Assembly (NCBI RefSeq): GCF_028877475.1
Contig: NZ_CP113528.1
Span: forward strand, 186,001-250,000
Direction of reading: 5' to 3'
Origin: Lysinibacillus irui
GTDB taxonomy: Bacteria > Bacillota > Bacilli > Bacillales_A > Planococcaceae
DNA length: 64,000 bases
The position numbers and the translations under genes are program-made. Positions 2-14,889 of the stretch are shown in pieces; within the stretch, counting starts at the first letter, position 1, and the number at the start of each line of letters is the position of its first letter. The notes under the pieces are model-generated. The model worked only from the letters and a program-made list of their open reading frames with translations, had not been told where the DNA came from and did not search any database.

Positions 2-670
2 GAAATTTTAAAGCGATTCTTAAGGGAAAACAGTAACAAGGAACTTGAACAGAAAAAAGTTCAAATATTTGAGGCTATTATTTCAACTTTATCAAGTGAA
101 CAAAAAGACGAATTACAAAATGTAATTTCACAACTTACTCCACATATGGATGATGAATGGTTTAAACAAATGATAGAAAAGTCTACAGCTATAAAACAGA
201 AAATAACTTACTTTAGCGGGTCACTGCCACCAGGACTATCTTATATGGGTGTAAATACGTTGGGTACGAGCTATGTTTATGAGGTACCTAAATCAAAGTT
301 CCGTGTTAAATACCATGGAGCACCGATTGAAGATGTAGGGCATCCTAGATTATTAGCTATATATAAATTAAAAAACGAGGAACAAGTTTCATCAATGAAG
401 CTTGTAGCGGTTAAAGAGAATGAAGAAATTCATGACTTAATGGATGTATATCATTATCCTTACTCACATGTGTTTTCTGATGGAAAAGTATGCTGGTACG
501 AGTATGGGAACTTTAAAAAGAGTGATTTGCCACAAATGGCAAATTTATTCTTATCTACAAGTAACTCAAACCATGGTGTTGATTGCTTAAAATTATATAA
601 AGAAAACGAGGGCAAAGATTTTGATGACTCAAAACTGAAACCACTCGGGAAATTAAAGGAATTGCTATAA
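2..670 (+). CDS. E2-like (PRTRC protein B-like) protein, 5' end outside window
   Basis: The reading frame is open from the first bases of the window, so the gene starts upstream; the ATG at 146 is probably internal. The protein is a paralog of the product of 1585-2670. Its C-terminal half carries an E2-like signature: HYPYSHVFSDGKVCW, with the cysteine at residue 116 counted from the 146 ATG, matching the HPN...G.(I/V)C active-site region of ubiquitin-conjugating enzymes and PRTRC system protein B. By homology it would take an activated ubiquitin-like protein from the E1 encoded at 7237-8079. The next gene follows after a good Shine-Dalgarno. The family call comes from motif and paralogy only; the chemistry is inferred. 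Confidence 0.7.
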   Translation, partial: EILKRFLRENSNKELEQKKVQIFEAIISTLSSEQKDELQNVISQLTPHMDDEWFKQMIEKSTAIKQKITYFSGSLPPGLSYMGVNTLGTSYVYEVPKSKFRVKYHGAPIEDVGHPRLLAIYKLKNEEQVSSMKLVAVKENEEIHDLMDVYHYPYSHVFSDGKVCWYEYGNFKKSDLPQMANLFLSTSNSNHGVDCLKLYKENEGKDFDDSKLKPLGKLKELL

Positions 671-705
671 CTATAGCAATTCTTTTCTTTTAGGAGGAAA
701 ACATA

Positions 706-1044
706 GTGATTAATATTTCTGACGTAGCAGACACTTTAGAACAAATGGAGCTCCCAGATGAGATGGAAAAACTATCAAAATTACTACAAGCAATATATTT
801 TAATCAATTTGATAGTTTAGGGCAAATAAGAGAGGTATTTGATGCGACATCAAAAGAAGAACTCATGAAATTGTTCAAGGCCATAAATGAGGAAAAATCA
901 CTTTCATTTGATGATGACGATTATGAGAGTAAGACACTAGGTGAAAAAGTAACATCTAGTGTATTTAAAAATAGTTACTGGAACGGATTAAGTTGTTCTT
1001 ACTATTGGAATAAATTGAAAAATAATAAAAAGTTATTTATATAG
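706..1044 (+). CDS. Unknown 112-residue protein between E2-like paralogs
   Basis: GTG start with AGGAGG at 692-697, 36 bases after the preceding gene. I do not recognise a family. The N-terminal two thirds is acidic and predicted helical, with a DDDD stretch; the C-terminal third is basic and aromatic (SYWNGLSCSYYWNKLK). It lies in one apparent transcription unit with the two E2-like genes and the next unknown gene, so it could be a substrate, adaptor or immunity-type partner of the ubiquitin-like pathway, but nothing in the sequence proves this. Confidence 0.6.
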   Translation: MINISDVADTLEQMELPDEMEKLSKLLQAIYFNQFDSLGQIREVFDATSKEELMKLFKAINEEKSLSFDDDDYESKTLGEKVTSSVFKNSYWNGLSCSYYWNKLKNNKKLFI

Positions 1045-1054
1045 GAGATATGTT

Positions 1055-1567
1055 ATGTATTTCGACATGAAAATTACATTTGAACAGATGTTTACATCAC
1101 TTTATATGATTGATTCACTGATAATTTTTAAGTTAATAGAAGAGTATACAAATAGTAAATTACCAGACCAAAAGAAGTTTTATAATTACGTCAATAATTT
1201 AGAATATGTATCATATGATGATTTTTATTGGCCTTTGGATTCTTTTCTATATCATACGGAAATTGGTGAAATAGTGTATGACGGGGAAGAATTTAATCTG
1301 ACACTTTATTCTGTATGTGCGGCGTTTTTAAAAAAGACTAATTTGGAACCCGATTTGCAAATCGAATTAAACACTCTCATTGATGAAGTTGGTGAGAAAA
1401 TTACGAATGTTGAGGATGGTATTTGTTTTTCAGTACATTGTCACTTCAACGAGAATAAACAAATATTTGAGGGTTTCCTATCGTTTGATAGAGAAGGAGC
1501 TATTTGCTGGCATAGTATATGTAAAATTCTATTAGATACTCATATCGAATGCCAAAAATATTTGTAA
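1055..1567 (+). CDS. Unknown 170-residue protein of the E2-like operon
   Basis: ATG start with AGGAGAT at 1043-1049, 10 bases after the previous stop. The protein is acidic and rich in Tyr and Phe, with no signal peptide or clear membrane segment and no motif that I recognise. A segment near the C-terminus (CFSVHCHFNENKQIFEGF) looks like paired beta strands. The 17-base gap to the second E2-like gene indicates co-transcription. Function unknown. Confidence 0.6.
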   Translation: MYFDMKITFEQMFTSLYMIDSLIIFKLIEEYTNSKLPDQKKFYNYVNNLEYVSYDDFYWPLDSFLYHTEIGEIVYDGEEFNLTLYSVCAAFLKKTNLEPDLQIELNTLIDEVGEKITNVEDGICFSVHCHFNENKQIFEGFLSFDREGAICWHSICKILLDTHIECQKYL

Positions 1568-1584
1568 TAAAGGAATGAATATAT

Positions 1585-2670
1585 ATGACAACAAAATTAG
1601 TATTCACAATGGAAGAAGGGAATTTCCCATTAATGGAAAGGTACGAAAACGATGTTAAAGTAGGGAATCGTAAAATTACATTGGAAATGTTGTTACGATC
1701 CTTTATCAAAGATGCATCGGTTGACTTGATATTTGATGAATTAATCAATAATAGAACAGATGATATAATAGATTATTTTGAAAATGTTAATGCAGCAAAT
1801 GATAATGGCTACCTGTTTCTTGTCATTCTTTTTAATCAGATACAAGATGGGTTGCTCGATAACTCTAATTTCTCAGAATTAGCAAAGCTTGTTATTGATA
1901 AAGCTGCAGATGATGCTCTAACAGAAGAAGCATTAACTACAGTATTATCATCTTGGATTAATAAAATAAAACGGGTACCGTGTAATGCAAGATACGCGGA
2001 GTTATATAAGGACCTGCTTCAATATTTTTTAGGTTCACCAAATGAAACTGATTTAAGCGTACAAAAAGAACTATTAAAAACTATATATAAATATCTAAAA
2101 GGGTTGAAAGAAAAGAAGGAAATAGATAAATGGGTTGCAATGCATATTGAACATTTACCTACCTCTATTTTGCTTGATGAAATAAGAGCAAAAAGTGAGG
2201 GAAGTAAAATGGTATATGGATTCAGCAAAGTACCTAAAAACGCTTCTTTTGTAGCAACAACTTCAGTGGGAACAACTTATTTTTATGATATCCCTAAATC
2301 AAAAATACGTGTCAAGTTTCAGGATGTGGCCTTTGAAAACGTTGGACATCCTAGACTTTTATTCGCTATTTCCTGTGTAAATAATCAAGTACAACAGGTA
2401 AAATTATGTGCTTTAAAAGGGAAAGCAGAATTAAATTTAGAAACGGAATTGTACCATTATCCATATTCAAATGTTTTTTCAGACGGAAGAATATGCTGGT
2501 CCCAATGGGATGAGCTTCCTATTGATCAGATACCAATAATGTTTTTAAGTACATCAAATAACAGCCATTTAAATAAGGATACTTTCTCATTATTTCAGAA
2601 GTATCAAAATAAGAATTTTAATGATAGAAGTTTAAAACCTATGCAGCTAACCATAGAAAACTGGTGTTAA
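1585..2670 (+). CDS. E2-like (PRTRC protein B-like) protein with helical N-terminal extension
   Basis: 361 residues. Residues 1-200 are mostly helical and acidic, without a recognised fold. Residues 210-345 match the upstream partial paralog closely, sharing 'PKSK.RVK', 'VGHPRLL', 'YHYPYS.VFSDG..CW' and 'FLSTSN.'. The block around H291-N296-C304 resembles the E2 active-site loop and PRTRC protein B. E2-like proteins carry an activated Ubl as a thioester; here the Cys is present, so activity is plausible rather than lost. It is the last gene of its unit: a strong hairpin follows the stop. Having two E2-like copies in one operon is unusual. Family call by motif; substrate unknown. Confidence 0.7.
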   Translation: MTTKLVFTMEEGNFPLMERYENDVKVGNRKITLEMLLRSFIKDASVDLIFDELINNRTDDIIDYFENVNAANDNGYLFLVILFNQIQDGLLDNSNFSELAKLVIDKAADDALTEEALTTVLSSWINKIKRVPCNARYAELYKDLLQYFLGSPNETDLSVQKELLKTIYKYLKGLKEKKEIDKWVAMHIEHLPTSILLDEIRAKSEGSKMVYGFSKVPKNASFVATTSVGTTYFYDIPKSKIRVKFQDVAFENVGHPRLLFAISCVNNQVQQVKLCALKGKAELNLETELYHYPYSNVFSDGRICWSQWDELPIDQIPIMFLSTSNNSHLNKDTFSLFQKYQNKNFNDRSLKPMQLTIENWC

Positions 2671-2675
2671 CATTA

Positions 2676-2718
2676 AATATAAAGAGCAAAAGCTATCTAT
2701 GCTTTTGTTCTTTATATT
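2676..2718 (+). terminator. Hairpin terminator after E2-like operon
   Basis: Eighteen-base arms at 2676-2693 and 2701-2718 pair with a single G-U, around a 7-base loop. The stem ends in AT-rich sequence rather than a pure T tract and could act in both directions. Confidence 0.7.
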
Positions 2719-2825
2719 GTTAATTTAGGATAATTTTGCTATCTTAAATTTGTGCTAAATAATAAATTCGTAGCGTTATTCGTAACTGGAAATGAACCAA
2801 TTTTATCAAATGTAGAGGTGTGTGT

Positions 2826-3662
2826 ATGAAAAATCGTTCGTATTTTAATGACCAACTAAAAAAAGATATTATAACTAACAAAGTAAAGTGCGAAGGTAAG
2901 CATGTTGAAGAAGAGCCAAAGCTACTGTTAGAGATATCAGAAAGACAATATCAATTAAACAAAGTATTTAATACTTTATCCGTACAAGATGGAATTAGAT
3001 GGATTTATGGATATGCAAATTATGTAAATGTTCTGGCGAAAAAGCCTAGAATTTCAAACTTCCATTATCGTACTTACCCTGTAGGAACTGTTGTGATGCT
3101 AGATTTTTTTGGAGGGTTTGATAAGGAGTTAATCTACGATCATCCAGCTATTGTTCTTCATAGTTCTATAGAAGGGTTGATCATTGCTCCTATTACATCA
3201 AACTCAAAGGTTTATACAAATGCAGTTAACGTTAGTACGCACGTTCGTCTTAATCGCAAAGCTCGTCCATACGGAAACTTACCTAAAGATTCTACAATTA
3301 AGTTAGAGCAATTAAGATTTGTTTCTAAATATCGTGTATTATCACAAATTGGAAGAGTCACAGATAAGCCAAAGCAAAATGAAATCCAAGAAGCTTTAAG
3401 TAATTTATTAGCCGAATTTGTAACTAAGCAGCGTGATAAAAAAATTCAAGATTTAGAACAAGAAAAGACTGTCCTGGAAGGGAAGAATACAATACTTGAA
3501 GATGAAAATCAAAGGTTAGATACATTGAATGCTACCTTAACTGAAGAATTAAGTATTAAAGAAGTTGAAAAACAAGAATTTGAAGACAAAATAAAAATTC
3601 TTGAGGAAAAAAATAAGCAACTTATCAAGGAATTAAATGAAATGAAAGGAGTAAAAAAATAA
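2826..3662 (+). CDS. PemK/MazF-family protein with long C-terminal coiled coil
   Basis: ATG at 2826 is preferred over the in-frame GTG at 2820 because GAGGTG lies just upstream. Roughly residues 75-180 match PemK/MazF endoribonuclease-fold proteins: 'YPVGTVVMLDF', 'HPAIVLHSS', 'LIIAPITSN', 'IKLEQLRFVSKYRV' and 'IGRV'. The last 85 or so residues are a charged heptad-like coiled coil. MazF-type toxins cleave RNA and are usually about 110 residues with an adjacent antitoxin. This protein is more than twice that length, and no short antitoxin gene precedes it. It may be a solitary PemK-like protein in which the coiled coil serves for oligomerisation or control. Confidence 0.75.
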   Translation: MKNRSYFNDQLKKDIITNKVKCEGKHVEEEPKLLLEISERQYQLNKVFNTLSVQDGIRWIYGYANYVNVLAKKPRISNFHYRTYPVGTVVMLDFFGGFDKELIYDHPAIVLHSSIEGLIIAPITSNSKVYTNAVNVSTHVRLNRKARPYGNLPKDSTIKLEQLRFVSKYRVLSQIGRVTDKPKQNEIQEALSNLLAEFVTKQRDKKIQDLEQEKTVLEGKNTILEDENQRLDTLNATLTEELSIKEVEKQEFEDKIKILEEKNKQLIKELNEMKGVKK

Positions 3663-3788
3663 TTTTTATTTATCTCTAGACAACCATTTAATAATAAGGT
3701 AATATTAATATATAATATTTGGGGGCAAATGGTCCCGTACTTTTAAGTACTTAAATTGCAATAAAATGATTTGGCACTTTTGTGTGCT

Positions 3789-3815
3789 GACTCCTTAACA
3801 TTTTGTTAAGGAGTC
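3789..3815 (+). terminator. Perfect 11-bp hairpin
   Basis: GACTCCTTAAC and GTTAAGGAGTC pair perfectly around a 5-base loop and are followed by TATTTATTT. Together with the second hairpin at 3825-3860 it separates the PemK/MazF-like gene from the HNH gene. Confidence 0.6.
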
Positions 3816-3824
3816 TATTTATTT

Positions 3825-3860
3825 AAAAAGCCTTCTAACAAAAAGTTTAGAGGGCTTTTT
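3825..3860 (+). terminator. Hairpin with T tract
   Basis: AAAAAGCCTTCTAAC pairs with GTTTAGAGGGCTTTTT, with one wobble and one bulge; the 3' arm runs into T residues. This is a typical intrinsic terminator, only 25 bases before the HNH gene start, so it could also be an attenuator for that gene. The 3663-3788 stretch before it holds no gene that I can support. Confidence 0.65.
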
Positions 3861-3884
3861 CTATTATATTTTTGTACCTAAATT

Positions 3885-4724
3885 TTGAAATTGAAAATAA
3901 AAAGAAGGGAATGGTTACTCATTAAAGACTTTGCTACAAAATATTCCTGGAATGGAAATGAAGCGTTAGCAATGGCAGCACATATGGTGGATGAGTTGGC
4001 AGGAATAAATGAATTAAGTGTGAGTAATTGGTTGGAATACGATGAGATTGATTGGATAAGAAAATGCTCAAAGCCTTTTAAAAAAACATTACTTCATAAT
4101 TACATAAGTTTTATATTTATTGAACAAAATGAGTACTTGTTGCATAAGCACTTGCCCATAGAGGTGATTATGTGTCTTACTGATATTATGCGGAAATATG
4201 GTATAGACTATTCTCATTTAGGAAATGTGGAGTATAGTGAACTTGAAATCGATGATGTTAATGATGAAATTGAAGATTACGGACGTAAAGTATTTAGTTT
4301 TTTTCTTGAGAAATTAGAAGTTATATTTGTGGATGATGTATTTACAGTGCTATTTGCAAATAAAGATTTTTTATATGATTTTAATAGTCAGATACAGGAG
4401 TTGGTTAGGACTTTAAATCAACGAGAGCATCCCGAATTGTTAAGGAAAAATGGTGTTTTTAAAAGAGTATATTTACCTCAATGGTTAAAAAAAGGTGTCT
4501 TTATGAGAGATAAAGGAAGATGCCAAATATGCGGTACTGATTTAACTAAGATATTCTCTTTAGAAAAAGCTGAAAATTATGATCATATAATTCCATTAGA
4601 AAAGGGTGGAACAAATGACCCTGTAAATTTTCAACTAACATGTGAAACGTGTAATAAGTCAAAGCGAGATAGAAACGAAGATTACAACAGCTTAGGATCA
4701 CGGTATTGGGATATAAATGAATAA
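3885..4724 (+). CDS. HNH endonuclease-domain protein
   Basis: Residues about 205-265 form an HNH/treble-clef module: 'RDKGRCQICG', then 'YDHIIPLEKGGTNDPVNFQLTC' in two parts, and 'CETCNKSKRDR', giving two CxxC pairs and the D-H-I core. The N-terminal 200 residues are acidic, helical and unrecognised. An in-frame stop at 3879 limits the start to TTG at 3885 or 3891; neither has a good ribosome site, so the start is uncertain. HNH enzymes of this size occur as restriction, anti-phage or homing nucleases, but no partner gene is evident here. Confidence 0.65.
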   Translation: MKLKIKRREWLLIKDFATKYSWNGNEALAMAAHMVDELAGINELSVSNWLEYDEIDWIRKCSKPFKKTLLHNYISFIFIEQNEYLLHKHLPIEVIMCLTDIMRKYGIDYSHLGNVEYSELEIDDVNDEIEDYGRKVFSFFLEKLEVIFVDDVFTVLFANKDFLYDFNSQIQELVRTLNQREHPELLRKNGVFKRVYLPQWLKKGVFMRDKGRCQICGTDLTKIFSLEKAENYDHIIPLEKGGTNDPVNFQLTCETCNKSKRDRNEDYNSLGSRYWDINE

Positions 4725-4772
4725 TAAAATAGGATATGTTGAATTAAATTCCACGAAAAGGAGAACTAAATA

Positions 4773-5606
4773 ATGGACTACCCATCTAGAGAATATTTAG
4801 AAGCTATTAGAAACATTCAAACAATGATGAATTCCTTTCAAGCAGATATAGTTAGAACGGGATCAATGTACAATGACCTAGCAAGAAAGGCTAGTACAAT
4901 GCTAACGGAGCCATTAATGAAATGGCAAGAATTTATTAACTCGATGAATTCAAGTATGATTAGAGCACTACAGACTCAACAAAAATTATCTTTGGAGGCA
5001 TCTAATACACTTAAAAGATCTATGGAATTAGCAAATTCATTTGGATATTTAGCCAATGAAATTCGTAATAGTATTCCTTTTGAAGAGCTTGCAGCAATCG
5101 ATTTTGGTTATATTGATGAAATGGATAGTATTGAAAATGATGTGGAACTGGAACTTACAGAAGAATATAAAGCTTATATTCAACAAGAAATTCAGACGCA
5201 ACTAAGTGCTATTAATGAGGAAGAAGAGCCGACAGCTACGACCTACCAAGAATTTTTTGTTAAGCTCTCAAATAGTATCCCTGGTCAGATATTATTCTCA
5301 ATATTACTATGTATCTTTTCTCCTTTTTCAAACGCAGTTTCAGAGGATATACAGGAGTCCATAACTGAGGTATGGGAAGATGAATTTCAAATTGATTTAA
5401 CTGGTGAATATAATGCCACTATTCGTAACGAAACATACTTGCGCCAAGGTAATTCAAAAACCGCTCCTATAGTTCTTCCACAAAAATTAAAGACTGGCCA
5501 GCTTGTAATTGTGAACAGTAGAAAAGGGAGTTGGGTGAAAATAATGGTATTGGTTGGTGAATCAACATACACTGGTTGGGTTGAAAAATCAAAAATCCTT
5601 AAATAA
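4773..5606 (+). CDS. Unknown protein with membrane segment and SH3-like C-terminal domain
   Basis: 277 residues, ATG start with AAAGGAG upstream. Residues 1-120 are amphipathic helices. A hydrophobic stretch near residues 170-190 (IPGQILFSILLCIFSPFSNAV) could be a membrane segment. The C-terminal 70 residues resemble a bacterial SH3 domain: 'NATIRNETYLRQG', 'KLKTGQLVIVNSRKGSWVKI' and 'YTGWVEKSKI'. A similar arrangement is seen in small Bacillus proteins annotated as SH3-domain containing. Function unknown. Confidence 0.55.
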   Translation: MDYPSREYLEAIRNIQTMMNSFQADIVRTGSMYNDLARKASTMLTEPLMKWQEFINSMNSSMIRALQTQQKLSLEASNTLKRSMELANSFGYLANEIRNSIPFEELAAIDFGYIDEMDSIENDVELELTEEYKAYIQQEIQTQLSAINEEEEPTATTYQEFFVKLSNSIPGQILFSILLCIFSPFSNAVSEDIQESITEVWEDEFQIDLTGEYNATIRNETYLRQGNSKTAPIVLPQKLKTGQLVIVNSRKGSWVKIMVLVGESTYTGWVEKSKILK

Positions 5607-5635
5607 AACCTTTTAAAATTTTGTGAGCAGAAAGA

Positions 5636-5857
5636 CTAGTAGACTTTCTTTTTTTCATAAGTAACAGGATTAATTGCTAAAACGTTATCTACATAAAATG
5701 TCCTTTTTGCTCTTCTTATATAACAATAGGCCGTAAATGTATTGTTAGTTAGCTTTAGAATTTTGACTCTTCTTTGAGTAATTGCTCCACTTTTTGAAAT
5801 ATAAATCATAGTAATTATTTGATTTTGCTTCATGACTTTAATTATTGAATTTTTCAT
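5636..5857 (-). CDS. Small WYL-domain-like protein under a LexA box
   Basis: 73 residues; the minus-strand ATG is preceded by AAAGGAGTG. The sequence matches the core of WYL domains: 'ITMIYISKSGAITQRRV', then 'FTAYCYIRRAKRTFYVDNVLAI'. WYL domains sense nucleic acids or nucleotides and often sit in regulators of defence and DNA-damage genes; solitary small versions are common in Bacillus. Its promoter (TTGAAC, 17 bp, TATCAT on the minus strand) contains a near-perfect LexA box, so SOS induction is likely. Confidence 0.65.
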   Translation of the reverse strand: MKNSIIKVMKQNQIITMIYISKSGAITQRRVKILKLTNNTFTAYCYIRRAKRTFYVDNVLAINPVTYEKKKVY

Positions 5858-5884
5858 TAGGTTTCACTCCTTTGTACATATGAT

Positions 5885-5898
5885 AGAACGTTTGTTCT
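5885..5898 (-). promoter_or_regulatory. LexA (SOS) box inside promoter of the WYL-like gene
   Basis: On the minus strand the sequence reads AGAACAAACGTTCT and fits the B. subtilis LexA consensus (CGAACRNRYGTTYC) at the GAAC-N4-GTTC core. It falls in the 17-bp spacer between TTGAAC and TATCAT, the usual position for a repressor blocking RNA polymerase. Confidence 0.75.
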
Positions 5899-5942
5899 TT
5901 TTGTTCAAATTATCAAATGATGGTTAAAATTTTTATATTTGG

Positions 5943-5971
5943 TTGCTCCCACCGTATTTTTTATATATAAT
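5943..5971 (+). promoter_or_regulatory. Promoter for Ubl-JAB/E1/dnaX operon
   Basis: TTGCTC, 17-bp spacer, TATAAT. It points into the family-A leader at 6003 and lies divergent to the SOS-regulated WYL-like gene. Confidence 0.6.
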
Positions 5972-6002
5972 TTTTTATATAACTTGTTTAATGAAATTCT
6001 AA

Positions 6003-6103
6003 GCTTAACCATACGGTGAAAGCATTAACTACACTTCTTAGATAGTGTCCATACTAATCTCTTATCAGGATTGGTCTGCACATTTATCGGAGAAGTGTTT
6101 TTT
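6003..6103 (+). ncRNA. Family A leader RNA/attenuator, copy 1
   Basis: This 5' leader matches two others at 11421 and 58625. Shared blocks, in order, are an ACGGTGAA-type motif followed by GCA, then CACT-loop-AGTG, GG...GTCTG, TTATC and a terminator. Here ACACT (6031) can pair with AGTGT (6044-6048), or ACACTTCT (6031-6038) can pair with AGAAGTGT (6091-6098), which runs into TTTTTT. The two folds exclude each other, the hallmark of an attenuator. It precedes the operon at 6143 by 40 bases. The ligand or protein that sets the choice is unknown. Confidence 0.7.
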
Positions 6104-6142
6104 CATTTCTCAAGATAAATAAATTTTTAGGAGGACTTATTT

Positions 6143-7240
6143 ATGAGTCAGGAACTAACTTTATTTGATCTAGGTGTTGAGGATACAACACAATCAGAAG
6201 AGCAAAAGAAAAAAGAAAGTAGTAAAAAGAGTAGTGTGGTGAAGAGTACACCTGCCCCTAAGAAGAAAGAAGAACCTCTTTTAGTAAATGCCGAATGGAC
6301 AATTCATTTTGCAACAGATCGTTTCTATGTGAGTGACTTCGTAGATGAAATGCCTGAAGAAGGTATTACATTAGAGGTACTAAGAGAAGGCATCGAGAGA
6401 CATTTTCCGCAGTTTAGCGCTGCACGAACAAAATGGGATTATGATAAGGATAAAAAGCAGCTATTCCCTGATGCATTTGCTGGGAGTAAAGGTGCAGATT
6501 CCAAAGAAGGTCGTTTTACGCCTTCTTTTTTTATTTCCGCAGAAGATGCTTTTGAAGCAAACAACTTCTATCGTTATATCCTTAGTGGGGATAATAAGGT
6601 TCTTTCTGTTCACCAATCTATATGTGGGACTATGATTACACCTACTAAAGGGGTTAGTGAAGCGACCAAAGCAAAAGCACTTAAGGATTTAGGATTAAAT
6701 GAAATTACAGAGTGCCCAATAACGCCAGCTACTTTTGAATGGTCATTGCCCAAGATTGAAAACAAGATTTTGAGACAGATCATTGGCTTTTTCCGCTCCT
6801 TTATACATGAAGAAGCGGAGTATGAAGTTGCTTTAAAAATTTATTGGGATTTAAAAAAGGAAAAATATGTAGTAGATTGTCCTAAACAGGTTGTAACGGC
6901 AATAAATATTGAATTGCAGCACAGTGAGGAATTTACTGGGAAAAATGCAACTCGCTATATTCCTGTTATGGAAGTCCATTCTCATAATGTAATGAGAGCT
7001 TTCTTTTCGGAAATAGATGATTCGGACGAACAAGCTTTTAACACAACATTTGGTGTGTTTGGTGTATTTGGTAGACTGAATCGGAAACAGTACGAAATGG
7101 TCTTTAGAGCAAAAATGAGAGACGATGTAATTGAGATTCATCCGGAACAATTATTTGATTTAGAGGAAGATCGAAGGGACTACTCCTATCCTAAACATTG
7201 GAAATCTAATGTTACAACAATGGGAGGGTTTTACCTATGA
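6143..7240 (+). CDS. Ubiquitin-like (PRTRC protein C-like)/JAB metalloprotease fusion
   Basis: 365 residues, ATG with AGGAGG upstream. Residues 1-10 hold a clamp-binding-like peptide (QELTLFDL), followed by a Lys/Ser-rich linker. Residues about 50-117 resemble the small beta-grasp PRTRC protein C and end in AGSKG, where family members end in a GTKG-like tail. Residues about 205-330 are a JAB/JAMM domain with a complete zinc motif: E224, H279-S-H281, S289 and D292, the exact HxH-x7-S-x2-D spacing. JAMM enzymes cleave Ubl conjugates or process Ubl C-termini; here the likely Ubl and its protease are one chain, suggesting self-release after the GSKG. The stop overlaps the start of the E1 gene. 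Domain calls come from motifs. Confidence 0.75.
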   Translation: MSQELTLFDLGVEDTTQSEEQKKKESSKKSSVVKSTPAPKKKEEPLLVNAEWTIHFATDRFYVSDFVDEMPEEGITLEVLREGIERHFPQFSAARTKWDYDKDKKQLFPDAFAGSKGADSKEGRFTPSFFISAEDAFEANNFYRYILSGDNKVLSVHQSICGTMITPTKGVSEATKAKALKDLGLNEITECPITPATFEWSLPKIENKILRQIIGFFRSFIHEEAEYEVALKIYWDLKKEKYVVDCPKQVVTAINIELQHSEEFTGKNATRYIPVMEVHSHNVMRAFFSEIDDSDEQAFNTTFGVFGVFGRLNRKQYEMVFRAKMRDDVIEIHPEQLFDLEEDRRDYSYPKHWKSNVTTMGGFYL

Positions 7241-8079
7241 AAATTCTTTATGGTCAAAATTTAGATATTGTTCTAATTGGTGTAGGAGCGAATGGATCTC
7301 ATTTCCTTCGAAATCTATTACAAGACATGTCATTATACGGTAGGGATATGAGAAAAAATCGATTGCTTATTGCTGACGGTGATAAGACAGAAGAAAAGAA
7401 CATTAAGAACCAACTTTTTACTCCTGAAGATATTGGGGAGTATAAAGTTAATGCACTAGCAGAACGTTATGGTGATCACTATGGAATAGATGTATTAGCT
7501 GTTCCTGATTACATTACGGATTGCGATATGTTAGAACGTCTATTTGCAAATGATGGCCGCTTTAAAATCCTAATTGGATGTGTTGACAATAACCGGACAC
7601 GACAATTAATGCACGACTATTTCAATTATGTAAGTGATTTACTTTACATTGATGTAGGAGTAGAGGGTGTCATTTTAAAAGAAGAGCTAAAAGATTATTC
7701 GTATGATGAGATGAATCGAATGATTATTGGTAGTGGCTTTTCAGGACAAGTAGTTGTTGGTTTTAAAACAAATGGTGAATTAATATTACCACCTATTTGT
7801 GATGTTTATCCCAACGTACTTAGTGATACTGAATCTGTATTTCCTACCCAAAATTGCACTGAAATTTTAAATAATCCTCAAAGATTAGAAACTAATAAAA
7901 TGGCCGCACAGATGGCCAATATCATTATGAATAACTTGTTCCATACAGGTGAAATTTATCAGCATGAAATATTGTTCAATGCTCGATATGGTTCATCCAA
8001 TGCCCGCTTCATTGAAGCTAGGACTGAAAAATATTTTAAAGAATTACAAGCGCAAAGCAAGAGTACGGCAGCTTGTTAA
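7237..8079 (+). CDS. E1/ThiF-family adenylating enzyme (PRTRC ThiF-like)
   Basis: 280 residues, ATG overlapping the previous stop by 4 bases, so translation is coupled. The Rossmann ATP-binding motif is GVGANG (15-20), followed by an acidic residue after the second strand (D47) and the 'KNQLFTPEDIG' stretch corresponding to the E1 'NxxRQ' region, then 'IGCVDNNRTR' (D117). Cys207 in 'PTQNCTEI' occupies the place of the catalytic Cys of PRTRC ThiF proteins. E1 enzymes adenylate the C-terminal Gly of a Ubl and form a thioester. The presumed substrate is the Ubl domain of the preceding gene and the acceptors are the E2-like proteins at 2-670 and 1585-2670. Confidence 0.85.
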   Translation: MKILYGQNLDIVLIGVGANGSHFLRNLLQDMSLYGRDMRKNRLLIADGDKTEEKNIKNQLFTPEDIGEYKVNALAERYGDHYGIDVLAVPDYITDCDMLERLFANDGRFKILIGCVDNNRTRQLMHDYFNYVSDLLYIDVGVEGVILKEELKDYSYDEMNRMIIGSGFSGQVVVGFKTNGELILPPICDVYPNVLSDTESVFPTQNCTEILNNPQRLETNKMAAQMANIIMNNLFHTGEIYQHEILFNARYGSSNARFIEARTEKYFKELQAQSKSTAAC

Positions 8080-8109: not shown

Positions 8110-10131
8110 ATGAACACTTTATTAGAAACTGAAGTTCAAGTAGAACATAAGGCACTTTATAGAAAATATCGTCCTAATGACTTTTCTGGTTTAGTAGGAC
8201 AAGCACATGTTAGAACGACTCTTGAAAATGCTATTGCTAAAGGGGCAGTGTCACATGCTTACCTTTTTACTGGTCCGAGAGGTACTGGGAAAACAAGTAC
8301 TGCTAAACTCTTTGCAAAAGCATTAAATTGTGAAAATCCTAATGGATGTAATCCTTGCGGTGTTTGTTATTCATGTTCAAATGATTCAACTGACATCATC
8401 GAAATAGACGCAGCAAGTAATAATAGTGTCGATGATGTACGTCAATTAAAAGAGAATATTATACTAACTCCAATGCATGGGAAAAACAAGATTTATATTG
8501 TGGATGAAGTACACATGTATACGACGCAAGCATTTAACGCTCTTTTGAAAATTTTAGAAGAGCCACCTGCACACGCTCGTTTTGTTTTAGCAACGACAGA
8601 AGTTCATAAAATACCGGCGACAATTCTTTCACGTTGTCAACGCTTTGATTTCCGTAGAATTTCTACTAAGGAAATCGTTGACCGATTAAAGTATGTCCTT
8701 AAAGAAGAAGGAAGAGCTGCCGAAGATACAGCATTAAACCTAATTGCTCAAGTATCAGCCGGCGGTATGCGAGATGCTTTAAGTCTACTAGATCAAGCGT
8801 TATCAAGAAAAACAGAACTGTCTGAAACGGTTACGTTAAATGATGTATTAGAACTTACAGGGGCAGTAGATGTTCGAGTAATTGGACAATTAATCTCATT
8901 GATAGCCAATAATCAAATTGAAGCCTCATTAAGTCATTTTAATAAATGCTTTGAGTCAGGAAAAGAGCCTAAATTTTTCATCGAGGAAATGATGATTTAC
9001 CTAAGAGATATTTTGATATTTAAAAGACTTGGCCCTGAAGCTACCTTAAAAAAGGCAAATACTGATGAGAACTTCCCTAATATTGCGGCGAGTGTTCAAG
9101 AGGATAAAGTTTATATTTACTTGAATGAACTTCAAGAAACACTAAGCAATTCAAAATTTCATCATGATATACAGCTACTTATGGAGATGACTATTATTCG
9201 AATGGTTCATGGAGAAAAAGCATCTCTACAGGCACAAATTGATGAACTCCGTTCAATGATAATAAATGGAAATATTTCTAATTCACCAAAACTTGCATCA
9301 GAACAAACAGCACCAATAAAAGCTAATGGTAATGATGAGGTAAGAATTGAAAATACTGAAGTCACAAACTTACAAGAACAGCCTAACGATTTTACAAATG
9401 CTGAAAATAATAATCAATCAATTTTCGAAACATCAAATGTTGATTTAACACTACTTCAACCTTCGACGGATATTCTACCAAGTAATGAAGAATCCAATCC
9501 TGAACCTCAAATGGATGAAGGGTTCGTTGAAGTAAATGATCCTTTACAGTTTATTGAAATGGCACGGGAAGCAGAAGCTAATGGCACAGATTGGGCTAAA
9601 GAACTTCCTCCTGAAAATGAAAATTACACTATGGAGTCATCTTCACCAGAAGAAGATCCAAATACAGAATGGCCAATGCCTCAACTTAATGACGATTTAG
9701 TTCCTCCTGAAACTGATAATGAATCAATGATTCTAAGTTTTGAAGAGGAAGTAGTTCAGAATACAAGTAACATTATTTTATCTGAAAAGGAACAAGAGGT
9801 GCTAGGGGTTCTACAGACAGCAAATATTGAGTACCGCGACGCTTTTAATAAAGTTAAGGAATCTATCATTAATGAGTTAGATTCTTTAAATTTATCCTCT
9901 AAACGAGTTTTCAGTGAATTTACAACGAAAGCAGTAAATGAAAAAACTGTTATTTTAGTACATGAACATAAAATTCAAGTTAAGTTAATTGAAAAAGCGG
10001 TTCATAGAAATAAAATTACCGAAGCATTTGAAAATGTTTATAAGGATATGAATTATATAGCTATCACTCAAGAAGAATGGCTAACAGTAGTTGCAGCATA
10101 TAAAGAAGCTAACCCTCAACAGGGTAAATAG
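8110..10131 (+). CDS. dnaX: DNA polymerase III gamma/tau-like clamp-loader subunit
   Basis: 673 residues, ATG with GGGGGTAG upstream. The N-terminal AAA+ domain has 'LYRKYRP', Walker A GPRGTGKT (55-62), a zinc module with Cys 74, 83, 86 and 89, Walker B 'IYIVDEVHM', 'LLKILEEPP' and the 'LSRCQRFDF' sensor. The collar region follows. Residues about 395-560 are an acidic Asn/Pro/Glu-rich linker, and a C-terminal tau-like domain ends the protein. The fold and length fit a full DnaX, so this is a second, element-borne clamp loader motor. It lies in one operon with the E1 and Ubl-JAB genes upstream and HolB downstream. Confidence 0.92.
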   Translation: MNTLLETEVQVEHKALYRKYRPNDFSGLVGQAHVRTTLENAIAKGAVSHAYLFTGPRGTGKTSTAKLFAKALNCENPNGCNPCGVCYSCSNDSTDIIEIDAASNNSVDDVRQLKENIILTPMHGKNKIYIVDEVHMYTTQAFNALLKILEEPPAHARFVLATTEVHKIPATILSRCQRFDFRRISTKEIVDRLKYVLKEEGRAAEDTALNLIAQVSAGGMRDALSLLDQALSRKTELSETVTLNDVLELTGAVDVRVIGQLISLIANNQIEASLSHFNKCFESGKEPKFFIEEMMIYLRDILIFKRLGPEATLKKANTDENFPNIAASVQEDKVYIYLNELQETLSNSKFHHDIQLLMEMTIIRMVHGEKASLQAQIDELRSMIINGNISNSPKLASEQTAPIKANGNDEVRIENTEVTNLQEQPNDFTNAENNNQSIFETSNVDLTLLQPSTDILPSNEESNPEPQMDEGFVEVNDPLQFIEMAREAEANGTDWAKELPPENENYTMESSSPEEDPNTEWPMPQLNDDLVPPETDNESMILSFEEEVVQNTSNIILSEKEQEVLGVLQTANIEYRDAFNKVKESIINELDSLNLSSKRVFSEFTTKAVNEKTVILVHEHKIQVKLIEKAVHRNKITEAFENVYKDMNYIAITQEEWLTVVAAYKEANPQQGK

Positions 10132-10144
10132 AGAGGGGTATAAA

Positions 10145-10369: not shown

Positions 10370-10383
10370 TATCATCTCTATTT

Positions 10384-10428: not shown

Positions 10429-11310
10429 ATGTCAAAGGATCTATTTGAAAATTTAATTAGAACAAATCGACTTAATCATGCTTACTTTTTAGAAGGTGGC
10501 AATGAAAAATTTTCTCTTTGGTTAGCTAGCAAAATTCTATGTGGCGGTCATGATGAAGAGTGTATAACTTGTCGAAGAATATTCAATCATAATCATCCAG
10601 ATGTAATATATATCCGTCCGGAAGGTCTTGATATTAAGGTTGATCAAATACGGGAAATCCATGAGAAAGCAGCATATAAAAGTGCTGATGGAAATGGACA
10701 AGTATTTATCGTCCAAAGTGCTGATAGGATGAATATTCAAGCGAGTAATGCATTTCTGAAGTTTTTAGAGGAACCAAAGCAAGATGTTAAAATTCTACTT
10801 CTGGGCCAATCAAAAGAAGGTTTAATTGAAACCATTAGAAGTCGTGTTCAAGTGGTTAAACTTGATGAAAGTGATGGCTTTATGAATGAAGCGGTTAGTA
10901 GAGGTTTAATGTTTAAAGGTTTAGGAATCTTTGAAGAAATTCATGTTAATGTTGATCAAGCTGAACAATATAAAGATGTTGCTGATGATTGGATAAAAGC
11001 AATAAGAGATGTTCTTGAATCTTCAAAACTTCATGCCATACAAAAAGTACAGTTATGGGAAAAACAATTTGAAAATAAAGAACAACGTAATATTTGTTTG
11101 CGATTAATTCAATCTTATGTAAAAGCTCTTTATGCCGAAACAAAAGGAACTTATCACCTTTGGGGGAATGTTCCGAAATATACATGGCCAGAACTTTTAA
11201 CTTGGGGTAATGCCATTGATGAGTTATCACGAAGTATTTATTCAAATGGACATTTTACCTTGCAAATGGAAAGTTTTTTAAAGAAAGTATGTAAAAACGT
11301 GGGAATATAA
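10429..11310 (+). CDS. holB: DNA polymerase III delta-prime-like subunit
   Basis: 293 residues, ATG with AAAGGAGG. The pattern is that of HolB/delta prime: 'NRLNHAYFLEGG', a degenerate ATP site without Walker A Lys-Ser/Thr, a zinc cluster (C38, then CITC), 'HPDVIYIRPEG', 'IKVDQIREI', 'VFIVQSADRMNIQASNAFLK' and 'FLEEP'. Delta prime is the stator of the clamp loader. With DnaX and the DnaN-like clamp it makes most of a private clamp-loading machine; no delta (HolA) gene is seen in the window. Slightly shorter than chromosomal HolB. Confidence 0.88.
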   Translation: MSKDLFENLIRTNRLNHAYFLEGGNEKFSLWLASKILCGGHDEECITCRRIFNHNHPDVIYIRPEGLDIKVDQIREIHEKAAYKSADGNGQVFIVQSADRMNIQASNAFLKFLEEPKQDVKILLLGQSKEGLIETIRSRVQVVKLDESDGFMNEAVSRGLMFKGLGIFEEIHVNVDQAEQYKDVADDWIKAIRDVLESSKLHAIQKVQLWEKQFENKEQRNICLRLIQSYVKALYAETKGTYHLWGNVPKYTWPELLTWGNAIDELSRSIYSNGHFTLQMESFLKKVCKNVGI

Positions 11311-11560: not shown

Positions 11561-12682
11561 ATGTTCAAAATTAATGTAGAAAGATTACAAAACGAGGTAG
11601 GTAACATAGTTACAGCTGCTAAAAGATCGCGATTACAACAAAGTTATATTTTTGTGTCGGCATCTAAAGAGAAAGGAACTGTGAGTTTTTCTTTTAGTGG
11701 AGAGGTATTATCAGTAGTTAAAACCATTGAAACAGAAGTTACTGAAGATTTATCTTTTGCGACCTCTGTATTGGAATTTCAATTAAAAGTTTCATCATTA
11801 CCAGATGAAGTAGAAATTACCGTAGCTCTTAATCCCAAAGGTCAATTGTTTTTAAAATGGGGTAACGGAAGCGGTATTATTTTACTTACTGTTGATGAAG
11901 AGAGAATTGAACTGAATTCACCTGAGACTATAAAATCTATCTCCTTTCCACAAGGCAAATGGAATTACTTCACGTTGAATTTTGCTACTTTTTGCGCTTT
12001 ACCGAATAGTAAAGCAGCAGATAAATCACCAACCTGTGCTGGTGTCAATTTTAGTAAATCTGAAGCTGGAACAGTGGTGCAGGCAACAAATTCCGTGAAG
12101 GCCATTAAGTCAATCGAAGAAATGGATTGGTTTGACGTTGCATTAACAATTCCACGTGATACATTTTTCGCGATAACTGAAATTGTTCCTTCAAATGAAA
12201 TAATTACAGTGTCTTTGGATCAAACCAAGACAAAGATTATTATTGAGGGTTCCTCAGTTTTTGCGATCTCAAGACTTCTTGACGGTAATTTTCCAAATAC
12301 TGAAAAGTTATTTTGCGATAAAAATTCCTCAATTGTCTGGAGAGCAGATCGAATGGAATTGTTGGAAACAACTCGTCGTGTTAAAAAGTTAGGTGGTCAA
12401 ACGCCAATTATGTCGGTGTTTAAAAAGGATACTAAACATTATGCTGTCCTAAAAGATATTCTAACGGAGAAAATTGGAGCAGTTATCGATTCTGAAAAAG
12501 AAGAGGGTTTTGTTGTGAATCCAAATAACCTTGAGGCCGCTTTAACAGTGCTACGAACAGAAGAGGTTTTACTTGCATTCACGCAAAAAGCTGCACCTAT
12601 TACTCTATTAAGTGGCGATGATGATGAAAGTGAAAACAGTCGTTCTAACTTGAAAGTCATGATTGCTCAAGTAAAACAATGA
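11561..12682 (+). CDS. dnaN: Divergent DnaN-like beta sliding clamp
   Basis: 373 residues, ATG with AGGAGG. Length and layout (three repeated clamp folds) fit beta clamps: N-terminal 'FKINVERLQNEVGNIVTAAK', middle-domain 'GVNFSKSEAGTVVQATNSVKA' in the position of the DnaN 'GV.F...G....ATD..RL' motif, 'LLDGNFPNTEKLF' like the 'RLIDG.FPDY' motif, and a C-terminal tail 'SNLKVMIAQVKQ' in place of 'MPMR'. Identity to chromosomal DnaN is clearly low. It would tether polymerases and partner proteins to element DNA. It has its own promoter and a family-A leader. Confidence 0.8.
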   Translation: MFKINVERLQNEVGNIVTAAKRSRLQQSYIFVSASKEKGTVSFSFSGEVLSVVKTIETEVTEDLSFATSVLEFQLKVSSLPDEVEITVALNPKGQLFLKWGNGSGIILLTVDEERIELNSPETIKSISFPQGKWNYFTLNFATFCALPNSKAADKSPTCAGVNFSKSEAGTVVQATNSVKAIKSIEEMDWFDVALTIPRDTFFAITEIVPSNEIITVSLDQTKTKIIIEGSSVFAISRLLDGNFPNTEKLFCDKNSSIVWRADRMELLETTRRVKKLGGQTPIMSVFKKDTKHYAVLKDILTEKIGAVIDSEKEEGFVVNPNNLEAALTVLRTEEVLLAFTQKAAPITLLSGDDDESENSRSNLKVMIAQVKQ

Positions 12683-12753: not shown

Positions 12754-14889
12754 ATGAAAATGAAATTAAAAACGAATAAAAATGAGGGCTTTGCTTTCCA
12801 AAATAAAGAAGATTTAAACAGCAACTTAATTCAGTTATCACTATTAAGCTCAGTGGGTTTACATAAACACTACCATATGGAACTTCTAAGAGGTTCGACA
12901 AGGGATCGACGTAGGAAAAAGTCTTACTTAACATACGACTTATTACACCATGAAAATGTCGAATCCATTAAAGAGCAAGGTGCTATAAAAACTCTTCAAA
13001 ATTATGGTGTTGAAATTGAAGGTCTTGATGAGGCTGAACGCATTTATCAAATTCAAAAGAAACGCCATGATTTTATGGGTATTCCTCTTGCTACTTACAT
13101 CGACTCCGAGCATTTTAATAAAGCTAAAGAAAAGGTTTTAGCTAAATATGGGGGAATTTTACCTGATGGTTCAAACTTATTTAGCTATCAAGTTGAATGC
13201 GCCTCTTTAATTGTAGGAAGACGCAGATTACTAAATGCTCTAGACATGGGGCTTGGTAAAACACGAACAACAATTGTTGGTTTAACATCGGATCCTAGAA
13301 ACAAAAAAATTCTAATTGTTACGATGAGCCGAAATTTTTGTGATTGGGAAAATGAATTCAAGTCATTAGGGTTGGCAGATGAGTATGTCATCTTAAAGAA
13401 ACCAATGGACATGAAATCTAAAAAAAGAATACACCTTGTTTCATACGAATCCTGGGCTGATGAAACCATAAAGTTTAGGAAAAAAGATAACAAATCAAAC
13501 AAGAGATATGGAAAAAAGGATTTGCCTTATCGATGTCCAGCTTGTTCAAGAATATGGAACGAAGATAAGTATTTTTGTGAGTGCGGAGAAACAGTGATTG
13601 AAAAAAGAAAGAAAGCACTCTACAAATACCTAGATAAGTCATATGATGCTGCTGCTATTGATGAGGGACATTTCATTAAGAATGGAGAAACAGCGCGTTG
13701 TAAGTCAATAATGGCTATCAAAACTAAAACAAGAGTGTTACTTAGTGGTACCCCAGCAGAGAATGGTGCTTCTGATTTATTTTGGCCTTTAGCTTGGTTA
13801 ATGGGGGATAGTCATCACTTTTGGAATAAAGTAGATCTCACTAAATTTGAAGCTTATGGTAACTTCGGTAAACGTTGTTTCAATCACGTTTATGGGGGAG
13901 TATCAAAAGTTGCTTTGGTGGATAGTTCAAGTATTTCCAAACGAACAAGTAATGAAAAAGCACTATGGGCAATGCAGGACATTATTATGTATAGGAAATT
14001 AAAGAAAGACCCTGAAATTGAACGTACTATCCGTGTACCTAAACCTACCCATATACGTTTGCATCTTGAGCAAACTGATGCCGAGAAAGAGCTGTATAAG
14101 AAGGTTTTGGCGGATTTTTCTCAATGGTACAATGAAACGTTGCGACAAAGAAAACTCGCATCTAGTCGAGAAGAATCGTATAAATCAACAACTATTGAAA
14201 TATGTGGTTGGTTAGACAAACTACGATTAGCAGCAAGTTGTCCGTGGATACATGAGGATTATGCTAAAAATGCAGTCGTACCCCCAAGCAAATTGACATT
14301 TATACGAGAAAAAATGCAACAGGAAGCTCGTTTAAAGAGAAAGATGCTTATATTCACGGCTCATAAAAAAACATGTGAAGAGTTAGGTTCCCTTTTAGAT
14401 GCTTATATCCCAGGTTATGAAGTTGGATATATTCATGGAGGGGTACCGATGTCTCGTAGGTTTGAACTGTTAACCCGCTTCCAGGATGAAGAAGATCCTT
14501 TAAGTGTTTTAATCATGACTATGAAAACTGGTGCGGAATCATATACATTAACTCAAGCAAAAAGCGTTATCTTACATGACTTAGATTACAATGCTAAAAA
14601 AATTGAGCAATGTTACTCACGTGCTGTTCGCTTAGGACAAAAAGAAGTTGTAGAAATCACGTGGCTAATAAGTGTAGATACAATTGACGCGAATATGCAT
14701 AGCTTAATACTCTCCAAGCAAAGCAGTGTTGATTTAGCGATAGACCGCCAGGAACTTGATTTTGCACAAGTGGCAAAAGAGTTTGAAGGACAAGGTATTT
14801 CAGGCGTAGGAAGCTTAGATTATGAGGAGTTTGCTAAAGAAATGTTAAGTCGTGGTACAAGTCGGAACCAATATGAAAATGTTGGATAG
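12754..14889 (+). CDS. SNF2-family (SF2) helicase/translocase with zinc insert
   Basis: 711 residues, ATG with TTGGAGG. Motif I 'MGLGKTRTT' and 'LIVTMSRNFCDWENEF' (Ia), then a zinc ribbon insert 'CPACSRIW...CECGE', motif II 'IDEGH' and motif III 'LLSGTPAENGASDLF'. The second RecA lobe has 'MLIFTAHKKTCEEL', 'YIHGGVPMSRRFELLTRFQ', 'MKTGAESYTLTQA' and motif VI 'QCYSRAVRLGQ'. The D-E-G-H box and motif VI place it with SNF2/RapA-like translocases that move on double-stranded DNA and displace proteins. It lies directly after the clamp gene; the next gene starts 14 bases on. A role in replication restart or protein clearing is inference. Confidence 0.85.
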   Translation: MKMKLKTNKNEGFAFQNKEDLNSNLIQLSLLSSVGLHKHYHMELLRGSTRDRRRKKSYLTYDLLHHENVESIKEQGAIKTLQNYGVEIEGLDEAERIYQIQKKRHDFMGIPLATYIDSEHFNKAKEKVLAKYGGILPDGSNLFSYQVECASLIVGRRRLLNALDMGLGKTRTTIVGLTSDPRNKKILIVTMSRNFCDWENEFKSLGLADEYVILKKPMDMKSKKRIHLVSYESWADETIKFRKKDNKSNKRYGKKDLPYRCPACSRIWNEDKYFCECGETVIEKRKKALYKYLDKSYDAAAIDEGHFIKNGETARCKSIMAIKTKTRVLLSGTPAENGASDLFWPLAWLMGDSHHFWNKVDLTKFEAYGNFGKRCFNHVYGGVSKVALVDSSSISKRTSNEKALWAMQDIIMYRKLKKDPEIERTIRVPKPTHIRLHLEQTDAEKELYKKVLADFSQWYNETLRQRKLASSREESYKSTTIEICGWLDKLRLAASCPWIHEDYAKNAVVPPSKLTFIREKMQQEARLKRKMLIFTAHKKTCEELGSLLDAYIPGYEVGYIHGGVPMSRRFELLTRFQDEEDPLSVLIMTMKTGAESYTLTQAKSVILHDLDYNAKKIEQCYSRAVRLGQKEVVEITWLISVDTIDANMHSLILSKQSSVDLAIDRQELDFAQVAKEFEGQGISGVGSLDYEEFAKEMLSRGTSRNQYENVG

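Follow-up and report, generated by a model that had tools for sequence, protein, structure and literature searches.

What might a ubiquitin-like conjugation system do on a bacterial plasmid, and why would its genes adjoin those of a replication clamp? The question is raised by a 64,000-nucleotide stretch of Lysinibacillus irui DNA (hereafter the window), which covers bases 186001-250000 of the plasmid contig C2 (251,206 bases) in a 4.7 Mb genome of two contigs. The window carries genes for a ubiquitin-like protein (Ubl) fused to a JAB-type protease, for a ThiF-like E1 and for two E2-like proteins (E2a and E2b), followed by dnaX-, holB- and dnaN-like genes of the clamp loader and the sliding clamp (Table 1). 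The set of Ubl, JAB, E1 and two E2-like proteins had been noticed in an earlier reading of the same DNA (the original prediction); this observation is confirmed, and the interpretation given to it is partly supported. New beyond it are the dnaX, holB and dnaN genes, a clamp-binding-like motif at the N-terminus of the Ubl and the upstream half of a pair of E2 cassettes. In our judgement there is about an even chance that the set is a PRTRC-like Ubl conjugation system coupled to the replication clamp of the plasmid, in which the Ubl would act as a covalent clamp-binding tag. Positions refer to the window unless they carry a handle; L and G handles stand for loci and genomes, and positions in L004 correspond to spans of C2 (L004:15585-16670 is C2:185585-186670).

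Linkage to clamp and clamp-loader genes

The gene order ThiF-dnaX-holB-dnaN of the window is also found in L015, L017, L022 and L086, and in L. sphaericus dnaX even overlaps ThiF. The same order, with group II introns within genes, is present in L018 and L025, the dnaN of the latter being a piece of only 138 amino acids. A second lineage (Virgibacillus, Terribacillus, Niallia, Sutcliffiella, Halobacillus and others) has a different clamp, which lies upstream of the set, and in L083, related only at the phylum level, a clamp is located downstream of it. Other neighbours in the relatives include exonuclease, Rad52, ssb and recA genes. The linkage extends to cyanobacterial plasmids. In those of Trichormus and Chroococcidiopsis (L095, L102) dnaN and dnaX follow the set, of which only JAB and ThiF were recognised in Chroococcidiopsis, and in a Leptolyngbya plasmid (L103) holA starts 3 nt after ThiF; for Nostoc p057_B no clamp or loader gene is annotated within 10 kb of the set. 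Clamp or loader genes adjoin the set, that is, in three of the four cyanobacterial plasmids read.

To put numbers on the linkage, we took a census of genomes in which the loci were not chosen by the presence of a clamp. ThiF was searched in 398 genomes of the class, 398 of the phylum and 200 of the family. There were matches in 27 genomes, of which four weak or partial ones (G262, G338, G359, G786) were excluded, leaving 23, including the genome of the window itself. A clamp gene lies at most 10 kb from ThiF in 15 of the 23, compared with 0.30 expected from the clamp number and genome size (P = 7e-24 under an assumption of independence that does not hold). Counting clamps recognised by Pfam PF02767 alone gives 13 of 23, the clamp genes of G867 and G902 having come from a local hidden Markov model (HMM). 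In a ThiF tree of 42 rows, the 23 rows with a nearby clamp or loader gene fall into five groups that differ in clamp types and gene orders; L083 and the cyanobacterial plasmids L095, L102 and L103 are among these rows. We conclude that the linkage of the Ubl set to clamp and clamp-loader genes is well supported.

The plasmid carries further replication genes. Besides the divergent dnaN1 of the window it encodes a second, more canonical clamp (C2:170586-171731, L004:586-1731) with three Pfam clamp domains and a score of 74.9 bits against PF02767; two more clamp genes are on the chromosome contig. Outside the window, on the minus strand, there is a gene for a DnaE-type polymerase of about 1000 amino acids (C2:38777-41812; match at C2:40202-40975, 1.1e-96). 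Since both this polymerase and the second, more canonical clamp are encoded, the plasmid may run a largely private replisome. The polymerase has one weak clamp-motif-like string, QQAIF at 677.

The clamp-binding-like motif

The bacterial clamp-binding consensus is QL[S/D]LF or QxxLF, and xxxLF is found in some DnaE3 polymerases (PMC12309361). The Ubl of the window has ELTLF at residues 4-8, and in relatives a motif of this kind is mostly found at the very start of the protein and followed by a K/E-rich linker. For the counts, a phage row (L021), a spurious row (L088:17520), three rows from the same genome or plasmid as others (L085, L090, L074) and a row with an unresolved start (L079, which holds QSSLF) were removed, reducing 42 rows to 36, and de-duplication at 90% left 32. 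The counts relied on a core HMM without the motif; as control served 1219 mechanical, non-overlapping open reading frames (ORFs) of at least 100 amino acids from the same loci.

Ahead of the core, xx[DSTNA][LI]F is present in 31 of the 32 non-redundant Bacillota Ubls (shuffled mean 2.24). More demanding patterns are also far above shuffled means: [QE]xx[LIM]F is found in 26 of the 32 N-terminal regions (1.76), Qxx[LIM]F in 18 (0.48) and Q[LIMFVT]x[LIM]F in 13 (0.12). Within the first 40 residues, [QE]xx[LIM]F occurs in 24/32 Ubls versus 47/1219 other ORFs, and Q[LIMFVT]x[LIM]F in 12/32 versus 20/1219. The Gln-type motifs are QLSLF, QLNLF, QIDLF, QLALF, QMDLF, QTDIF, QETLF and QMSIF, and the Glu-type motifs ELTLF, ELSIF, EMSIF, ETTIF and EMDLF; others include NVSIF, GPDLF and VTNLF.

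The cyanobacterial Ubls read have no N-terminal clamp-like motif. Instead, there is one on the product of the gene that immediately precedes the Ubl gene: its last residues are QLSLF in L095 and QISLF in L104, and in L103 it has QRSLF followed by four residues (QRSLFDLPS), so that a clamp-type motif is present in all three cyanobacterial loci where this gene was seen. The strongest sign that the clamp matters, in our opinion, is that related systems in two phyla bear the motif on different proteins. On the plasmid itself, terminal clamp motifs occur in 5 of 244 ORFs, compared with 0.38 after shuffling; among them are the QISIF of an exonuclease encoded upstream of the window and the QLSLF that ends a protein of 83 amino acids.

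Components of the predicted conjugation set

As far as sequence can tell, the families of the enzymes are clear, and the components named by the original prediction were all recovered. The E1-like enzyme was expected to have a candidate catalytic Cys, and Cys207 is conserved in all 18 aligned sequences together with the GxGxxG glycines, D49, E52, N55, Q59, K70 and D117. When the E1 profile was compared with PDB sequences, MccB and eukaryotic E1s were matched at about 1e-8. The nearest named relatives found are those of Candidatus Kurthia equi, with 64% identity over the best segment, and of Lysinibacillus composti, with 71%; identity to proteins of Lysinibacillus plasmids is 57%. Many large plasmids carry a relative: at 1e-3 there were matches in 149 of 72,556 PLSDB records, and records annotated as PRTRC ThiF are among the relatives. 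We know of no established function for them.

Both E2-like proteins are 361 amino acids long. The E2a ORF (C2:185585-186670) starts 416 nt upstream of the window, and the Prok-E2_D match of the fragment inside the window is under the Pfam cut-off. E2a and E2b share 30.5% identity (1.4e-49). Both L015 and L016 hold a separate closest counterpart for each of them; therefore, the pair predates the split of these hosts. A further E2 pair is found in L086. The putative catalytic Cys304 is conserved in 25/25 aligned relatives, of which 24 match Prok-E2_D at E<=0.01. It is surrounded by xPYSNV..xG.vCW, a setting that we take to resemble the active-site loop HPN...C of E2 enzymes. H328, downstream of the Cys, is present in 5/5 near relatives, but is not invariant across the 25.

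The JAMM protease with an intact HxH-x7-S-x2-D motif, another claim of the original prediction, also stands. E228, which we infer to be the Glu of the JAMM motif, and H279, H281, S289 and D292 are conserved in 17/17 aligned relatives. The fusion protein matches Prok-JAB at 0.0021, under the cut-off, and the same 17 relatives all match this family at E<=0.01.

The small beta-grasp-like domain reported on the JAB protein is backed by its relatives. The core of the window's own Ubl (residues 45-117) has no match to the Prok_Ub, ThiS or PRTRC_C models, and among the 17 relatives, taken at E<=1, Prok_Ub is matched by six (best 3.1e-7), PRTRC_C by five (best 3.2e-5) and ThiS by two (best 7.1e-5). 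These matches support the prediction that the N-terminal domain is a beta-grasp-like Ubl. An hhalign comparison of Ubl cores with six PRTRC_C-like Ubls gave a weak match (probability 20, E 0.0011) in which the terminal KG is aligned. Gly117 is conserved in 17/17 aligned sequences. In Peribacillus, Cytobacillus, Metabacillus, Rossellomorea, B. halotolerans, B. velezensis and two further genomes (L025, L023, L024, L026, L029, L100, L077, L078), the Ubl is not joined to JAB; these eight proteins were selected by a score below 1e-20 with the motif-free core HMM, which was itself built from the Ubl family. Six of the eight stop exactly at the Gly aligned with Gly117, and those of L026 and L077 are two residues longer. 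Because the unfused Ubls of relatives end there, Gly117 is the likely processing site and the predicted conjugation site. The tail is mostly KG, with the exceptions KNG (L031), KMG (L083), SNG (L096) and QNG (L103), Gly being the constant letter.

Relationship to known systems

The original prediction regarded the set as a compact, rearranged relative of PRTRC. The relationship is real insofar as the parts are homologous: JAB corresponds to protein A, E2 to protein B, Ubl to protein C, and ThiF to ThiF, and Cupriavidus pMOL28 (L094) has the order E2, JAB, ThiF. Membership in PRTRC proper was rejected, since all curated cut-offs were missed: PRTRC_ThiF scored 81.9 bits against a cut-off of 144.75 (E 4.2e-23, that is, homologous), PRTRC_A 35.1 against 101.8 bits and PRTRC_B 34.6 against 131.45 bits. 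In contrast to PRTRC, the set of the window has a Ubl with an N-terminal motif and linker, a Ubl fused to JAB, two E2 cassettes and a link to dnaX-holB-dnaN; no ParB/E gene was recognised beside it, and no search of the plasmid was made for ParB-related, D, E or F proteins. Among the papers found to contain the word PRTRC, no title announces a function.

Judged by its sequences, the set is a divergent PRTRC-like system, a cousin of PRTRC resembling operon type 6d of Iyer 2006. In that paper (PMC1779556), this type is described as comprising a small Ubl with a conserved C-terminal Gly, an E1, a helical protein, a JAB with an extra N-terminal domain and an E2 that has the Cys and lacks the usual His; the row of the table names Bcer, Bthu, Ana and Avar among others. 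The window shares with it the conserved C-terminal Gly of the Ubl, an E2-like protein with a conserved Cys and adjoining JAB and E1 genes, which overlap by 4 nt. In a text search of PMC1779556, the word 'replication' does not occur and 'clamp' occurs as an author name only, so type 6d is not connected with the clamp there.

Bil (BilABCD) and CBASS are likewise bacterial systems of Ubl or Ubl-like conjugation with E1, E2 and JAB, and BilA has two Ubl domains, according to PMC11354881. The set of the window differs from Bil in its single Ubl core and from both systems in its Ubl with a clamp-binding-like motif and in its replisome neighbours. A literature search, with bioRxiv and most subscription journals outside its scope, found no paper in which Ubl conjugation in bacteria is linked to the clamp.

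A possible mechanism and its alternatives

The proposed steps are as follows. JAB would cut the Ubl-JAB precursor after Gly117, where the unfused relatives end. The ThiF-like E1 would adenylate the C-terminal Gly of the Ubl and load the Ubl on Cys207, as its conserved residues suggest. One of the two E2s would then take over the Ubl on Cys304 and transfer it to a lysine residue in a protein of the plasmid or the host, from which JAB may also remove it. Since the Ubl bears a clamp-binding-like motif before a K/E-rich linker, its attachment would tether the modified substrate to a sliding clamp, for example the product of the neighbouring dnaN1. The outcome would be a covalent and reversible clamp-recruitment tag. 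In eukaryotes, ubiquitin and SUMO modify PCNA, the sliding clamp, and the proposed traffic would be akin to theirs in that a ubiquitin-type modifier acts at the clamp. However, the eukaryotic clamp is the substrate, whereas in the window the modifier itself appears to bear the clamp-binding peptide, and clamp affinity would thus reside within the modifier. The original prediction suggested that replication or transfer proteins may be modified. The clamp linkage and the Ubl motif point to replication; nothing pointing to transfer was found in a search limited to the gene neighbourhood.

A broader reading, which we find conceivable but lean somewhat against, is that bacterial plasmids evolved a beta-grasp clamp-binding tag with its own E1/E2 and removal by JAB, which would recruit any modified protein to the sliding clamp. 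With the plasmid clamps, clamp loader, 5'-3' exonuclease, helicase and DnaE-type polymerase, it would make up a largely self-contained replisome under Ubl control. This would be a bacterial counterpart of PCNA ubiquitin/SUMO signalling, with one form in Bacillota and another in cyanobacteria. The linkage and the motif suggest a concrete biochemical role for the set: proteins would be recruited to the sliding clamp or modified there. Should this be true, bacteria too would have ubiquitin-type control of the replication clamp, and their modifier, with its built-in clamp-binding peptide, would be of unusual design for a Ubl.

A number of observations weigh against a coupling to the clamp. Position 1 of the motif, Gln, is important for binding in E. 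coli (PMC12309361), and the ELTLF of the window has Leu4 and Phe5 but Glu instead of Gln1, its near relatives having Glu or Asn there. [QE]xx[LIM]F is absent in six of the 32 Ubls (L017, L020, L027, L078, L088, L089); in L088 a possible reason for the absence is the group II intron ORF immediately ahead of the exon that is left. The motif was seen first and the patterns were defined afterwards, and the table of motif positions was anchored on the motif itself. As for linkage, no clamp or loader gene is near ThiF in 19 of the 42 tree rows, and in 8 of the 23 census genomes no clamp gene lies as close as 10 kb. In three of these a clamp is farther off on the same contig (12.7 kb in G342, 37 kb in G246, 100 kb in G263); on the ThiF contigs of G228, G298, G324, G849 and G928, where some hits or contigs are partial, there is none. 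The counts are correlated by descent and not phylogenetically independent, and clustering of plasmid replication genes may have other causes. For the two Proteobacterial PRTRC sets and the one from Deinococcus that were read, no clamp is annotated in the vicinity and the termini read show no canonical motif; for this reason a clamp role, if real, may be confined to the Bacillota and cyanobacterial branches. Moreover, in comparisons with PDB sequences the E2 profile retrieved helical-bundle and other unrelated matches and no E2, and with the JAB profile AMSH-type proteases came up at no better than E 0.1 to 0.25.

Several of these points would be expected if the set were an ordinary PRTRC-like Ubl system that merely shares the plasmid backbone with replication genes, its LF motif serving another contact, such as docking to the system's own E1/E2 or JAB. 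Plasmid housekeeping genes do cluster, as the exonuclease, Rad52, ssb and recA neighbours of relatives illustrate, the two Proteobacterial PRTRC sets lack an annotated clamp nearby, and the motif of the window lacks Gln1. However, many members fit the clamp consensus position by position, composition does not explain the motif, in cyanobacteria another member of the set bears the clamp motif, and in two phyla the E1 gene abuts a clamp-loader gene for different subunits (dnaX and holA). We consider such mere sharing somewhat unlikely. The same linkage could also mean that the clamp or clamp loader is the substrate, with the Ubl joined to DnaN or DnaX and the motif holding the modifier there for E2. 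A clamp-bound E2-Ubl would presumably meet the clamp or its partners first, but a Ubl that already bears a clamp motif would not have to be attached to the clamp, and we regard this version as rather improbable.

Two further possibilities do without the clamp, and we attach little probability to either. The Ubl might be a sulfur carrier, a ThiS/MoaD-like thiocarboxylate for plasmid-specific thiolation and not a protein modifier, in line with the ThiF-type E1, the two of 17 Ubl cores that match ThiS at E<=1 and the PAPS-reductase-family genes annotated in 6 of 28 annotated spans. Against this role speak the presence in the set of a dedicated E2 with an invariant Cys (25/25), the accompanying JAB protease and the tail of the Ubl, which is mostly KG, whereas ThiS and MoaD tails end in GG. 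Alternatively, the plasmid might carry the set for defence against phages, as a module of the E1-E2-JAB type known from bacteria. The ThiF protein does match PADLOC E1-E2 models weakly (best 1.4e-5), but mainly over the shared nucleotide-binding part; for E2b and Ubl-JAB there is no PADLOC match at 0.01, and E2a matches only a helical stretch of LmuA (6e-4). Similar enzymes are used by Bil and CBASS (PMC11354881), yet the set has no recognised nucleotidyltransferase or effector, and its recurring neighbours are replication genes.

Locus layout and other features

The original prediction placed the system at 2..8079. The core set is indeed there, but the locus starts upstream of the window, part of the span looks like cargo, and the replication genes at 8110-12682 were omitted. 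The DNA upstream of the window reveals two consecutive cassettes, each with two small-protein genes and an E2 gene (110, 155 and 361 amino acids in the first, 112, 170 and 361 in the second). Because the pair begins upstream, base 2 of the window falls in the middle of E2a. A 5'-3' exonuclease gene precedes the first cassette.

Table 1. Features of the window with their positions, strand and supporting evidence
Feature	Position	Strand	Evidence or remark
E2a (Prok-E2_D), C-terminal 222 of 361 aa in window	2..670	+	Prok-E2_D 1.3e-4
Small protein 1b, 112 aa, first gene of second E2 cassette	706..1044	+	L016 homologue 2.6e-19
Small protein 2b, 170 aa, second gene of second E2 cassette	1055..1567	+	L016 homologue 5.8e-24
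E2b, 361 aa, Prok-E2_D / PRTRC_B-like	1585..2670	+	Prok-E2_D 6.8e-10 (over Pfam cut-off), PRTRC_B 1.2e-8
Codon of putative catalytic E2 Cys304, YHYPYSNVFSDGRICW	2494..2496	+	Cys column kept in 25/25 aligned
Terminator-like stem-loop, 18 pairs, closing E2 cassette	2676..2718	+	
Ubl-JAB fusion, 365 aa	6143..7240	+	PRTRC_A 9.6e-9; Ubl recognised via unfused relatives
Clamp-binding-like motif ELTLF, residues 4-8, Ubl N-terminus	6152..6166	+	F8 kept in 17/17 aligned
Predicted Ubl beta-grasp-like core, residues 45-117, ending ...AFAGSKG	6275..6493	+	Alignment and relatives
JAMM motif HSH-x7-S-x2-D (H279-D292)	6977..7018	+	Kept in 17/17 aligned
E1/ThiF-like adenylyltransferase	7237..8079	+	ThiF 8.7e-12, PRTRC_ThiF 4.2e-23; start overlaps JAB gene by 4 nt
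Codon of E1 Cys207	7855..7857	+	Cys207 kept in 18/18
dnaX-like clamp-loader gamma/tau	8110..10131	+	NF004046 1.1e-148; 30 nt after ThiF
holB-like clamp-loader delta'	10429..11310	+	PF13177 8.1e-42
Divergent sliding clamp dnaN1	11561..12682	+	PF02767 1e-6, 29.4 bits vs cut-off 27
SNF2-family helicase, recurring neighbour	12754..14889	+	PF00176 1.4e-16; homologues in L015, L018, L022
Protein ending clamp-motif-like GQTLLF	14904..15920	+	L022 protein also ends GQTLLF
Protein starting MSENTGQLLLF, putative further clamp client	61264..62151	+	

The small proteins of the two cassettes correspond in place and length only (1b to the product of C2:184777-185109 and 2b to that of C2:185121-185588), and BLAST found no similarity between them at 1e-2. 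Since the small1 and small2 HMMs were built from both cassette copies, matches of these HMMs to the copies themselves carry no weight as evidence. The small proteins of the first cassette have no Pfam match at 0.05 and those of the second no NCBIfam PRTRC match.

A split of the set over two transcription units, as originally predicted, is supported by the terminator-like stem after the second E2 gene and by the cargo block of about 3.5 kb. Region 2820-5857 was considered as part of the system and rejected, being absent between the E2 and JAB genes in L015 and L016, where the two are only about 220-250 bp apart; it looks like unrelated cargo. It encodes a PemK/MazF-like protein with a coiled-coil-like tail, an HNH endonuclease and an SH3-like protein. 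In L. sphaericus, an S-layer-type gene is located in the gap between E2 and JAB. The term 'conjugative element' in the original prediction is borne out as far as type IV secretion genes are concerned (a TrbC/VirB2-type pilin, a VirB4-like ATPase and a transglycosylase/M23 protein, PrgI and TrbL/VirB6 matches falling under their cut-offs); a relaxase was not looked for.

Among 50,697 phage records, the E1 was matched by 13, one of them over at least 80% of its length. Bacillus phage KLEB27-3 (L021) has poly-Ubl, E2-like, JAB and ThiF genes, and within the 40-kb span read no gene is annotated as a clamp. Scans of viral contigs with the window Ubl-JAB and two alignments found no relative. The poly-Ubl of KLEB27-3 (L021:14676-15425) consists of four near-identical repeats, each ending in VKG.

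Group II introns recur inside or beside genes of the block (L016:8256-11204, L018:21399-24260, L025:9047-12139 and 13112-15637, L088:6747-8558). They interrupt ThiF between residues 204 and 222 in L016, that is, in the Cys207 region, ThiF and dnaX in L025 and dnaX in L018. Rfam group II matches were obtained in L016, L018 and L025, and L088 has a reverse-transcriptase-like ORF upstream of the remaining Ubl exon. The PAPS-reductase-family genes are annotated at L017:2848, L018:1240, L019:25042, L026:19828, L027:15064 and L096:13641. Finally, the window contains two large surface-protein-like ORFs at 40889-54951 (1466 and 3139 amino acids), in which visual inspection suggests repeats and SLH-like ends.

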